Below, piece by piece: positions 1,812 to 47,064 of a DNA stretch of 64,000 bases. Source of the DNA: Paenibacillus alginolyticus DSM 5050 = NBRC 15375. Its GTDB lineage: Bacteria > Bacillota > Bacilli > Paenibacillales > NBRC-103111. How positions within the stretch are numbered: position 1 is the stretch's first letter; each line of letters begins with the position of its first letter. The stretch is taken from positions 62,001 to 126,000 of the forward strand of contig NZ_AUGY01000001.1 of assembly GCF_000422905.1 (NCBI RefSeq). Direction: 5' to 3'. Made by a program: the position numbers and the translations under genes. Under the pieces are notes generated by a model, which was not told where the DNA came from, ran no database searches, and saw only the letters and a program-made list of their open reading frames with translations.

Positions 1812-1830
1812 ACAGAACTTAATCTTAAAA

Positions 1831-1904
1831 TGCCTGTTTTGCTGAAGCAAAACTCAAGATTATGCTTACGATGCCAGTTTTGCTAAAGCAAAACTCTTAG
1901 GAGG
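1831..1904 (+). repeat. Two tandem hairpin repeat units ending in the spmA SD
   Basis: Two units share the core GTTTTGC-loop-GCAAAAC: stem 1836-1842/1847-1853 with loop TGAA, and stem 1876-1883/1888-1895 with loop TAAA. The second carries the flank TGCTTACGATGCC and is followed directly by TTAGGAGG, the spmA SD. The same flank-hairpin-SD order occurs before gpsA and before the small gene at 46682. Confidence 0.8.
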
Positions 1905-11849: not shown

Positions 11850-12145
11850 GAACATAAAAAAACTCCCAACCCCTCAGGTACAGACACGTATGTCTGTAGC
11901 CAAAGGGACGAGAGATTGCTTTCGTGGTACCACCCTAGTTCGCTGCCCATTCACATGGGAAGCCTCAATTGGTCTTGCGACCTGGAACTGTAACGTGTTC
12001 CTATCCCGATTGCATCTACTTTATTTCAATGCAATAACTCTGGAGTGCTCCGCAAATGTTCGCTACCGATTCGCACCTACCATCGGTTCTCTGAAAGCTA
12101 CTTTACTTGCTTGGCTCCGTCAACGCTGTGCTGTGATATAGAATT
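11850..12145 (-). promoter_or_regulatory. T-box riboswitch of serA, predicted Ser (AGC) specifier
   Basis: On the minus strand the antiterminator T-box sequence AGGGTGGTACCACG lies at 11936-11923, followed by a terminator. Upstream are the stem I signatures (AAGTAAAGTAG, AGAGAACCGATGG, GGTGCGAATC). In the expected place on the 3' side of stem I the sequence is GCGGAGCACTCC; reading AGC (12049-12047), followed by A, gives a serine codon, fitting serA. The fold and specifier were assigned by eye. Uncharged tRNA-Ser would stabilise the antiterminator and allow serA transcription. Confidence 0.88.
11855..11914 (-). terminator. Terminator arm of the serA T-box
   Basis: On the minus strand an inner ACAGACA-TACG-TGTCTGT stem sits inside an outer pairing (CTC...GAGGGG...GGGAG) followed by seven T (11862-11856). 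It competes with the T-box antiterminator. Confidence 0.75.
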
Positions 12146-17870: not shown

Positions 17871-17950
17871 TTATCATATTCTGTTTTAATAAGATTACCA
17901 TGCTTTCGATGCAAGCTTTCCAGTCGGAAGGCTCAAAGGAGGATCCTATC

Positions 17951-29550: not shown

Positions 29551-29680
29551 AATAGTTGGTATGCCCGCATGATTCGTGCGGAGTCTCAAATGAGATTAGC
29601 CAAGTCGTGTCTTTTTTGTTATGATGTAAGTTGCGTATTTTTCCATGGCTGATCATGGAATTCGAAGGAGTGAATGAGTA

Positions 29681-31019: not shown

Positions 31020-31622
31020 TTGCTTTCGATAATAACAATTGTAGCGGGTTATTTATTAGGCTCCATAAGCTTTAGTTATTTATTCGGAAAATGGTTCAAA
31101 GGCATTGATATCCGTAAGCATGGGAGTGGCAATGCGGGGGCGACAAATACGCTTCGTGTTCTGGGTAAGGGGCCTGCCATTTTAGTTCTCTTGCTGGATG
31201 CCTTAAAAGGAGTTGCTGCCGTGTGGATTGGAACATGGGCAGCTCCTGGACCTGATGACATCTGGATACGTGTATTATGTGGACTCGCTGCCATCGTCGG
31301 GCATAATTGGCCGGTTTACTTCGGCTTCCAAGGCGGTAAAGGTATCGCGACAACCATCGGCGTTATGGCAACACTCTGCTTCATACCAACGTTAATTGCT
31401 GGTTTAACAGCAATCGTCATCATTGCGGTCACCAGATTCGTATCGCTCGGTTCCCTTATTCTAACAGCACTTTTACCTTTCCTTATTTGGGGGATGGATC
31501 GACCTTTGCCTATCTTGTGGATTAGCATTTTGCTGTGTGCGTTTGCCTTTATGCGTCATCGTACGAATATTGTGAAGCTCATTCAAGGTAAAGAGAACAA
31601 GCTAGGTCAGAAGAGGGCATAG
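31020..31622 (+). CDS. plsY: Glycerol-3-phosphate acyltransferase PlsY
   Basis: 200 residues, polytopic. Transfers acyl from acyl-phosphate to glycerol-3-phosphate. Motifs GSISFSYLFGKWFKGIDIRKHGSGNAGATN (split over helix 1 and loop; catalytic SGN region) and GGKGIATTIGV are diagnostic. TTG 31020 follows AGGAGA. The 164-bp gap after it is filled by the repeat array before gpsA, which makes the substrate glycerol-3-phosphate. Confidence 0.94.
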   Translation: MLSIITIVAGYLLGSISFSYLFGKWFKGIDIRKHGSGNAGATNTLRVLGKGPAILVLLLDALKGVAAVWIGTWAAPGPDDIWIRVLCGLAAIVGHNWPVYFGFQGGKGIATTIGVMATLCFIPTLIAGLTAIVIIAVTRFVSLGSLILTALLPFLIWGMDRPLPILWISILLCAFAFMRHRTNIVKLIQGKENKLGQKRA

Positions 31623-31631
31623 CTAATCTCG

Positions 31632-31779
31632 TGATGCCAGTTTCTATGAAATCTCAATAATGCTTACGAAGCCAGTTTTGCTAAAGCAAAACTCAGTAAC
31701 GCTTACGAAGTAAGTTTTCTCACGAAAACTCAGTTAATGCTTACGAAGCCAGTTTTGCTAAAGCAAAACTTTTAGGAGG
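31632..31779 (+). repeat. Array of three or four hairpin repeat units ending in the gpsA SD
   Basis: Three clear units share (A)TGCTTACGAAGCC plus a hairpin; a degenerate fourth comes first. Stems: 31674-31681/31686-31693 (AGTTTTGC/GCAAAACT, loop TAAA), 31713-31719/31724-31730 (AGTTTTC/GAAAACT, loop TCAC) and 31751-31758/31763-31770 (AGTTTTGC/GCAAAACT, loop TAAA). The last runs directly into TTTAGGAGG, the gpsA SD. The middle unit changes both stem sides together, so pairing is conserved. Confidence 0.85.
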
Positions 31780-31786
31780 AGTAACC

Positions 31787-32830
31787 TTGTCAAACAAAGT
31801 ATCGGTCCTAGTAGCAGGAAGTTGGGGGACGGCACTTGCCTCGGTACTGGCGGATAATGGGAAGCAAGTGCTTTTATGGTCTCGTAATGAGGATCAGGTT
31901 ATAGAAATAAATGAAAAGCATCGTAACAGCCGCTTTCTTCAAGATGTGGAGCTATCGCCGCTCATTGTAGCGACTAACTCGCTGCAGGAGGCGGTAGAAG
32001 ATGCTGATGCGATCATCATGGTCGTGCCTTCAACCGGAATGCGCGAGGTAGCATCACGTATGCGTCCTTTTTTGAAGAAGGATGCATTAATCATTCACGC
32101 GACCAAGGGCTTTGAAATAGGGACGTTAAAGAGAATGACTGAAGTTCTTGCCGATGAGCTTCCTGACATGGATGCCAAGCGGCTTGTTGTCCTTTCCGGT
32201 CCAAGTCATGCAGAGGAAGTTATTCGCAAATACCCGACGACTGTCGTTGTCGCGGCCCAAGACTTGGGAGCGGCTGAAGCTGCACAGGATTTACTGATTA
32301 ACTCCTACTTCCGTGTGTATACGAATCCAGATGTTACAGGCGTAGAGGTTGGGGGAGCGCTGAAGAACATCATTGGTCTAGGCGCTGGTTTGACAGATGG
32401 TCTAGGATTTGGTGATAATGCGAAGGCTGCTCTTGTAACGAGAGGCCTAGCCGAGATTGCACGTTTGGGTACCGCAATGGGAGCCAATCCACTTACATTT
32501 GCGGGCTTAGCGGGGATTGGCGATCTGATTGCGACTTGTACGAGTCAACATAGCAGGAATTGGCGTGCCGGCAATAAGTTAGCGAAGGGAATACCCTTGG
32601 ACGACGTGCTCAGAGAGATGGGAATGGTCGTAGAAGGCGTGAAAACAACGAAAGCTGCTTATGAGTTGTGCCGCAGATTTGATGTAACCATGCCAATTAC
32701 AGATGAGTTATACAACGTTCTCTTCGATGGGAAGTCCCCTCAGCTAGCTGCACAAGATCTGATGGGGCGCGTCAGAACCCATGAGATCGAAGAAGTTGCC
32801 AGCGAATCAGCAACAAATGTGTTGAAGTAG
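31787..32830 (+). CDS. gpsA: Glycerol-3-phosphate dehydrogenase [NAD(P)+]
   Basis: 347 residues. Reduces dihydroxyacetone phosphate to sn-glycerol-3-phosphate for phospholipids. N-terminal Rossmann motif with a changed glycine pattern (VLVAGSWGTALASVLADNG; usually GxGxWG), then catalytic Lys in GALKNIIGLGAGLTDGL, and GLAGIGDLIATCTSQHSRN. TTG 31787 follows AGGAGG with a spacing of 7. plsY, the consumer of its product, lies just upstream. Confidence 0.95.
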   Translation: MSNKVSVLVAGSWGTALASVLADNGKQVLLWSRNEDQVIEINEKHRNSRFLQDVELSPLIVATNSLQEAVEDADAIIMVVPSTGMREVASRMRPFLKKDALIIHATKGFEIGTLKRMTEVLADELPDMDAKRLVVLSGPSHAEEVIRKYPTTVVVAAQDLGAAEAAQDLLINSYFRVYTNPDVTGVEVGGALKNIIGLGAGLTDGLGFGDNAKAALVTRGLAEIARLGTAMGANPLTFAGLAGIGDLIATCTSQHSRNWRAGNKLAKGIPLDDVLREMGMVVEGVKTTKAAYELCRRFDVTMPITDELYNVLFDGKSPQLAAQDLMGRVRTHEIEEVASESATNVLK

Positions 32831-45175: not shown

Positions 45176-45254
45176 AGTGGAGAATACATAGATTGAACCA
45201 AGAGTAAGTTTATGCAGATGTTTCTTACGGAAACTATAAGGAGGAAGTCCTTAC

Positions 45255-46628: not shown

Positions 46629-46676
46629 CTAAGATGTACGATGCAAGTTATTGCTAAGGCAATATCTCTTAGGAGG
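46629..46676 (+). repeat. Hairpin repeat unit before the small HTH-like gene
   Basis: AAGATGTACGATGCA followed by AGTTATTGC (46646-46654), loop TAAG, GCAATATCT (46659-46667), then CTTAGGAGG. Eight of nine stem positions pair although the stem sequence differs from the spmA and gpsA copies (GTTTTGC to GTTATTGC), so both arms changed together. Confidence 0.75.
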
Positions 46677-47019: not shown

Positions 47020-47064
47020 GTATGCTTACGAAGCTTGTGATGCTTCGCAAAACTCATAGGGGGT
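47020..47064 (+). repeat. Degenerate hairpin repeat unit before aroC
   Basis: TATGCTTACGAAGC matches the flank of the gpsA units, and GCAAAACTCATAGGGGG matches their 3' end with the SD. Here CGAAGC (47029-47034) can pair with GCTTCG (47042-47047) instead of the usual stem. Confidence 0.6.

Follow-up and report, generated by a model that had tools for sequence, protein, structure and literature searches.

A short RNA hairpin unit stands, alone or in tandem, directly ahead of the Shine-Dalgarno (SD) sequences of many genes in the source genome. Each unit joins a conserved motif to a hairpin, lies nearly always in the sense orientation, keeps its pairing through compensated changes, grows into tandem arrays, and is gained and lost among relatives. 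We tentatively read it as a spreading hairpin module, which may separate the SD from upstream RNA and shield the downstream cistron from 5' decay, and we give this mechanism somewhat less than an even chance. If true, the same short RNA hairpin has been repeatedly installed before scores of unrelated genes, each time at the ribosome-binding site, being kept by compensatory change at some genes (rpmJ) and gained or lost at others. This opens two questions, namely by what means an element of 35 nt locates SDs, and whether portable 5' hairpins separate Firmicutes operon genes from their neighbors. Natural, graded leader parts (1 to 11 copies) would also become available for expression work in Paenibacillus.

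The gpsA array and the pairing of the unit

The gap between plsY and gpsA holds three tandem units of 32-34 nt each, with one decayed unit ahead of them (Table 1). The sequence-only reading had described three clear units and a degenerate one in this place, and its hairpin letters are those found, namely AGTTTTGC-TAAA-GCAAAACT in the first and third units and AGTTTTC-TCAC-GAAAACT in the second. The copies stand in register at 31658, 31697, and 31735, with a spacing of 39 and 38. That reading had the last hairpin directly joined to the SD, which is not so, as the hairpin ends at 31770 and is followed by TTT and then by AGGAGG at 31774-31779. When the whole array is folded, unit 1 pairs with unit 3 (z -2.7), and the identical units of the array may pair with each other over a long range.

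Table 1. Units and associated features in the window, the whole 64-kb stretch of DNA analyzed. R1 is the covariance model built from 14 units with the SD excluded; the sequence of unit 1 is inside its training alignment (A2) and that of unit 2 is outside it.
Feature	Position	Strand	Basis or remark
Two units, the first diverged, ahead of ORF 1914; SD at 1899	1821..1895	+	R1 matches
Unit ahead of mecA (start 17951)	17900..17933	+	R1 match
plsY, upstream cistron	31020..31622	+	TIGR00023
Decayed first unit of the gpsA array (GTGATGCCAGTTTCTATGAAATCT)	about 31631..31654	+	by reading; better-kept counterparts in G003, G015, G042
Unit 1: 12-nt motif and 8-bp hairpin	31660..31693	+	R1, 60.6 bits
Unit 2: 7-bp hairpin, different top	31699..31730	+	R1, 35.9 bits
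Unit 3 (terminal), sequence identical to unit 1	31737..31770	+	R1, 60.6 bits
SD (AGGAGG) of gpsA, 3 nt past the hairpin	31774..31779	+	present also in unit-less relatives
gpsA (NAD(P)H-dependent glycerol-3-phosphate dehydrogenase), TTG start	31787..32830	+	NCBIfam NF000941
Degenerate unit ahead of ndk	45209..45235	+	by reading
Diverged unit ahead of ORF 46682	46634..46667	+	R1, 22 bits
Degenerate unit ahead of aroC	47022..47054	+	R1, 16.5 bits

The unit reads A-TGCTTACGA[A/T]G, followed by 2-3 variable letters and a hairpin that in most cases has 7-8 bp and a 3-4 nt loop. The base of the hairpin, AG[T/C]TTT/AAA[A/G]CT, is conserved, and its top varies with compensation; conservation is stricter in the motif than in the stem top. 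Among 71 units of this genome (66 distinct), 98.4% of the pair cells are standard and four of the eight pairs have changed on both sides. Any of five measures of pairing is reached by at most 2 of 500 shuffles, and in slid versions no more than 64% of the cells pair, in an alignment that was fitted to the model and in which pairing is therefore favored.

Independent evidence for the pairing comes from rpmJ. A unit is found at the SD (E<0.01) in 17 of 30 rpmJ leaders, from families f1, f2, and f10 with several of the 17 from one genus; the 30 loci are the best of 116 genomes with a match, ranked by the protein match alone. Of the other 13 loci, G019 carries its unit farther up, three match weakly, and the rest show none at that place. 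Fifteen rpmJ hairpins were compared, one per genome, comprising 13 from model-matched loci (one of them weak), that of G039, which has no match, and that of G068 from L385. No fewer than 14 of the 15 are paired at each position of the stem, and 12 of 13 at the eighth, for hairpins that were picked by eye, with a bias towards paired arms. Position 7 of the stem appears as A-T, T-A, G-C, C-G, and T-G, while position 3 appears as T-A, A-T, C-G, G-C, and T-G, with one mismatch. Template-switch repair of palindromes could also be a source of agreeing arms, but it leaves unexplained the placement at the SD of one gene, rpmJ, across several families.

Within the motif, 47 of the 58 units that have T at position 10 carry C at position 12, as against 42 of 129 otherwise (Fisher p 6e-10, a value overstated by the relatedness of the sequences). 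This association is compatible with a small stem (GCTT-ACG-AAGC or GC..GC). Several other readings of the unit were tried and set aside. A mini-ORF is not supported, as unit length (30-35 nt) and linkers vary, so that no reading frame is kept, and the first letters are ATG, AAG, ACG, and others. The motif does not appear to sequester the SD, the unit being, by reading, without a complement to AGGAGG. The 16S rRNA presumably holds the complement of TTACGA, which we judge to be a chance 6-mer. The idea of species-specific stem types was dropped, with three alike units of G021 belonging to one array.

Placement in the window and the source genome

The pattern GCTTACGAAG, allowing up to one mismatch, gives 11 matches in the window, three of them in the gpsA array, against 3.4 expected, and none of 100 shuffles reaches 11. 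The sequence-only reading held that the same block occurs before spmA and, changed, before other genes, and this is confirmed by the copies at ORF 1914, mecA, ORF 46682, aroC, and ndk. The product of ORF 1914 has a Pfam Gate domain, consistent with SpmA. The mecA unit persists in G016, G003, G002, and G006, its stem showing a wobble change and its loop further changes, making at least five genomes. Units are also found at the ORF 46682 site in G003, G015, G001, and G021, for an ORF of 54 aa to which no protein family was matched, and the ndk site in G023 has three units. The window also holds a T-box leader at 11901-12132 on the minus strand (RF00230, 111 bits), its sole Rfam match at gathering score.

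The whole genome was searched with R1, with 150 candidates scored, so that the counts are lower bounds. Matches with E above 0.12 were omitted, many of them being the palindrome read backwards and some perhaps real. At least 112 units at no fewer than 80 sites were recovered (E up to 0.12), with one unit at 57 sites, two at 15, three at 7, and four at 1. In 73 of the 80 sites, a script finds an SD core 2-5 nt past the hairpin, and then a start codon with an open frame (ATG 59, GTG 10, TTG 4). This placement is seen although R1 contained no SD. Genome-wide, GCTTACGAAG-N0-6-AGTTT is matched 31 times, as against 0 for the reversed control pattern. A frame on the same strand ends within 50 nt before the first unit, or overlaps it, at 37 of the 80 sites, and within 150 nt at 52. 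The genes behind the units look mixed, including housekeeping, transport, and spore genes (starts read by eye). The earlier proposal of a repeat family that is tied to ribosome-binding sites, nearly always sense, and covarying in its arms is thus borne out in this genome, where units are not equally common far from starts or in reverse; a single site, C45:17545, is read as lying antisense to its genes, themselves read as ribosomal-protein genes.

The sites that do not fit are varied. By reading, C45:12533 (rpmJ) and C82:6727 have degenerate units next, with an SD behind those. The distance at C1:41863 is 16 nt, C45:40737 lies in what looks like the rplA leader and has a more distant SD, C123:7863 has CTAAGGAG with no frame found, and C24:16049 has three units and no SD. 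A wider script scan of 141 loci, 80 of which had been chosen by a pattern that includes the SD, gives 252 unit-like matches, with 123 adjacent to an SD, 94 followed by another unit, and 35 with neither. By reading, most of these 35 may be hairpins extended into the SD, or chance matches. In the same scan the distance from hairpin to SD is 3 nt in 91 of 125 cases. AGGAGG is found at 58 of the 73 unit genes and at 6 of 47 other window ORFs, a contrast that is given no weight here, since those 47 starts are unverified. Near the SDs of 230 frames with an SD and a start lie 35 perfect stems of at least 7 bp, and 19 of these stems are units by reading, in stretches that were partly chosen for holding units.

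Distribution and turnover across the order

A second covariance model, R2, was built from the 71 units. It has matches in all 25 genomes of the genus that were searched, from at least 6 to at least 152 each (150 candidates scored per genome), and in 5 of 15 other genomes of the order. Under stricter filters, it has matches in 91 of 119 genomes sampled from the order, covering 21 of 34 genera. In a phylum sample it has matches in 3 of 119 genomes, all three from this order. The family is restricted to the Paenibacillales in the samples searched. Named hosts of a unit with an SD, in at least 115 stretches, are Paenibacillus for most of the 80 loci listed, as well as Gordonibacillus and unclassified Bacilli.

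The form and the placement of the unit differ between lineages. In G101, all 20 fetched sites, which are among its best matches, are adjacent to an SD by reading, and the unit at L411 adjoins the SD. Two arrays before a gene start in this genome (L399 and L400) have 11 and 8 units, with a period of 42 nt and mostly 41 nt, respectively, and represent a natural VNTR in a leader. G033, from another family, has many long-loop units, with about 25 extra nt in the loop, mostly 2-4 nt from the SD; among 28 of its sites, an SD and a frame are found in 19 by script and in 4 more by reading, with 1 doubtful and 4 having none. In one long-loop unit of this genome (L106, around 1500), the motif could, by reading, also pair with TGCTTCGTAA inside the loop, giving possible alternative structures. 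G025, also from another family, has 15 sites (one weaker match left out), of which 3 are at an SD, 7 in rRNA operons, and 5 elsewhere. Its SD sites belong, by reading, to valS, rpmJ, and an hpf-like gene, the valS unit standing behind a terminator-like sequence that has no Rfam T-box match. The rRNA copies lie 5 nt before a 5S rRNA match (L085, L110, L204), 32 nt after the 23S rRNA (L128), or are placed in rRNA operons by reading or by a 5S neighbor (L119, L122, L125). G025 has units identical in sequence to a unit of the source genome. In G039, the hairpin is without an SD at all 9 loci, which lie inside larger intergenic repeats. Such larger repeats holding a unit-like hairpin occur, around 1500, in L115, L118, L121, L124, L127, L130, and L133 of G039 and in L111, L120, and L132 of G033. 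By reading, they contain neighboring inverted repeats whose letters differ between copies, and they are possibly a separate structured mobile element.

The gpsA leaders of 30 genomes of the genus were compared by reading. Units are present in the source genome and six close relatives, 2-3 each, differing in their stems and decay. G040 has half a unit, G004 and G009 a 3' remnant, and G020 and perhaps G017 a diverged unit, with none recognized in the rest; among close relatives the copy number is 0 to 3. Leaders lacking the unit still have the gpsA SD in position, as seen in G006, G023, and G008. The der leader is conserved and unit-less in nine of 11 genomes, and in the other two, G021 and G017, a unit with differing letters and stems stands between GAAT and AGGAGTG, with no target duplication visible at either insertion. 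Judged from these leaders, der is a gain of a unit beside a pre-existing SD. The SD is not part of the unit, because unit-less relatives retain it (gpsA, der) and the inner units of arrays have none, so the earlier suggestion that the unit carries a ribosome-binding site fails. The der gene also has a short inverted repeat of its own, CCATGGCTGATCATGG, at 29643-29658 of the window, just 5' of its SD, which is found also in relatives that have no unit there.

On the sequence comparisons, sites and copy number turn over fast, through gain, arrays of 11, deletions, and remnants. Since close relatives differ in whether an orthologous site (gpsA, der) has the unit, evolution can dispense with it at a given gene. 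Some genes recur between genomes of different genera. Four of 18 unit genes of G101 are among the 76 of the source genome, with 0.2-0.3 expected (binomial P 0.7e-4 to 3e-4, assuming 6000 or 4000 genes). The genes in common are 3 of 22 for G033 (galU, a LysM protein, and atpC, not counting two weak partial matches of one transporter) and 1 of 3 for G025 (rpmJ). Either the sites at these genes were kept, or the same genes were hit again.

Known systems and possible roles

Palindromes of the REP/BIME kind are short, extragenic, and present in many copies, with no fixed orientation to genes. The units are likewise short extragenic palindromes in many copies, but nearly always sense and upstream of an SD. 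No REP-type (Y1) transposase is linked to them, the genome having one Y1 match, with a TnpB-like neighbor by reading and no unit in its 3.3-kb locus, and a Y1/IS605 mover was accordingly rejected for this genome. RiboJ-type synthetic insulators place a hairpin directly before the SD and separate it from upstream RNA; the units differ in being natural and tandemly repeated, with no ribozyme seen. An intrinsic terminator, GC-rich and with a T run behind it, was rejected because no T run follows the AT-rich stem, which at 73 of 80 sites is followed by 2-5 nt and the SD. No Rfam match at gathering score covers a unit in the window or in 13 unit-bearing loci, and the sub-threshold matches at the gpsA array are to unrelated families. 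In the literature searched, with most subscription papers and preprints outside it, there is no name or description of the element. The motif letters gave unrelated titles among the matches of paper texts listed, and the main texts of the ncRNA surveys consulted contain no word starting with 'paenibacill'.

The nearest known kind is the MIRU, described, in the portions of the sources consulted, as short tandem direct repeats at translation starts, variable in copy number and apparently mobile (PMC12548453, PMC2734929). The units likewise form tandem direct repeats (2-4 units at 23 of the 80 sites), are intercistronic (52 sites within 150 nt of a same-strand stop), and are co-oriented with the operon (73 sites sense and SD-adjacent). 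A MIRU, as described there, inserts at the start codon and brings an ORF coupled to the gene, whereas the units vary in length, keep no frame, are defined by an RNA hairpin, and end before the SD, with no ORF overlapping the next start codon. The 5' stabilizer leaders and strong SDs of Bacillus mRNAs (ermC, atpE, cryIIIA) may be similar in that a message starts with RNA structure, a strong SD, or both, according to the part of the source that was seen (PMC3997798). Those are single-gene leaders, whereas the units form a single repeat family, fixed in motif and spacing, that is found at many genes and grows in tandem. At 73 of 80 sites the hairpin adjoins the SD of what may be the head of a message.

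One rival reading is a MIRU-like mobile repeat without host benefit, inserting just 5' of the SD as a harmless place, where the gene keeps its own SD. This is a possible explanation, though a doubtful one, and the boundary reading does not exclude it. It is consistent with the insertions at der between a conserved leader and the SD in two genomes and their absence from nine others, the variable copy number at gpsA, the long arrays of G101, and the identical units in G025, as well as with the insertion of apparently mobile MIRUs at start codons, in the passages available (PMC12548453). Compensatory change at rpmJ across families argues against it, as do the gene sets in common between genomes, unless the same genes were hit again, and the failure of the Y1 transposase search to find a mover. 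That only 7 of 80 sites lie away from an SD may also speak against it, depending on how many harmless sites exist. The strictness of the motif relative to the stem top, with the association between positions 10 and 12 hinting at a recognized or folded motif, would suit a binding site for a putative Paenibacillales RNA-binding protein or sRNA that controls the translation of a large regulon, with tandem units raising affinity. We consider this rather unlikely, given the mixed downstream genes (by reading) and a p-value overstated by related sequences. We take the unit to resemble a boxA-like TGCTT followed by a hairpin, and copies occur in the rRNA operons of G025, but a nut/boxA-like antitermination or other transcription-level signal is very improbable, as it gives no reason for the narrow distance to the SD and the G025 rRNA copies are seen after the 23S and not in a leader.

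The boundary reading is ranked first because a hairpin that ends 3 nt ahead of an SD would suit stabilization as known from B. subtilis, and the rRNA-spacer copies of G025 are also at places of RNA processing. It draws as well on the SD-adjacent placement of 73 of 80 sites, on the compensated pairing at rpmJ, on the genes in common between genera, and on the 52 of 80 sites that begin close behind a same-strand stop or overlap it. In B. subtilis, long downstream stretches can be stabilized by a bound protein, a ribosome-binding site, or a hairpin close to the 5' end, and mapped RNase Y sites lie near secondary structure, as stated in the part of the text consulted (PMC3997798). In most of the genomes looked at closely, the terminal unit stops about 3 nt before an already-existing SD; in the proposed mechanism, its hairpin would act on the mRNA as a boundary. 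Upstream RNA would be prevented from pairing with the SD, and the hairpin and a strong SD together could shield the downstream message from 5'-to-3' decay after an upstream cleavage. The operon gene would thereby be expressed with less dependence on the preceding sequence, and new or tandem copies at SDs would persist as helpful while others decay. A broader version, with only a limited chance of being right, is that a repeat landing directly before SDs has been taken over across much of the order as a translation-initiation or mRNA-boundary module, with a putative factor of its own for the TGCTTACGA motif, and thus as a mobile, tandemly tunable 5' leader coupling genome spread to expression.

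Several findings count against the boundary reading. A conserved 12-nt motif is more than a plain barrier requires, orthologous units are gained and lost among close relatives, non-unit hairpins also precede SDs, and 7 of 80 source-genome sites do not fit. Only 3 of 15 sites in G025 and none of 9 loci in G039 are at an SD, and the 7 rRNA-operon sites of G025 speak against a purely SD-bound role. The folding of 73 leaders speaks in its favor, as the median energy to free the SD is 3.00 kcal/mol for the native leader, 3.58 with the last unit shuffled, and 3.33 with it removed. The native leader is cheaper than the shuffled one in 54 of 73 cases and than the unit-removed one in 46 of 73, a predicted gain in SD accessibility that is consistent, though its small size weighs against the reading.
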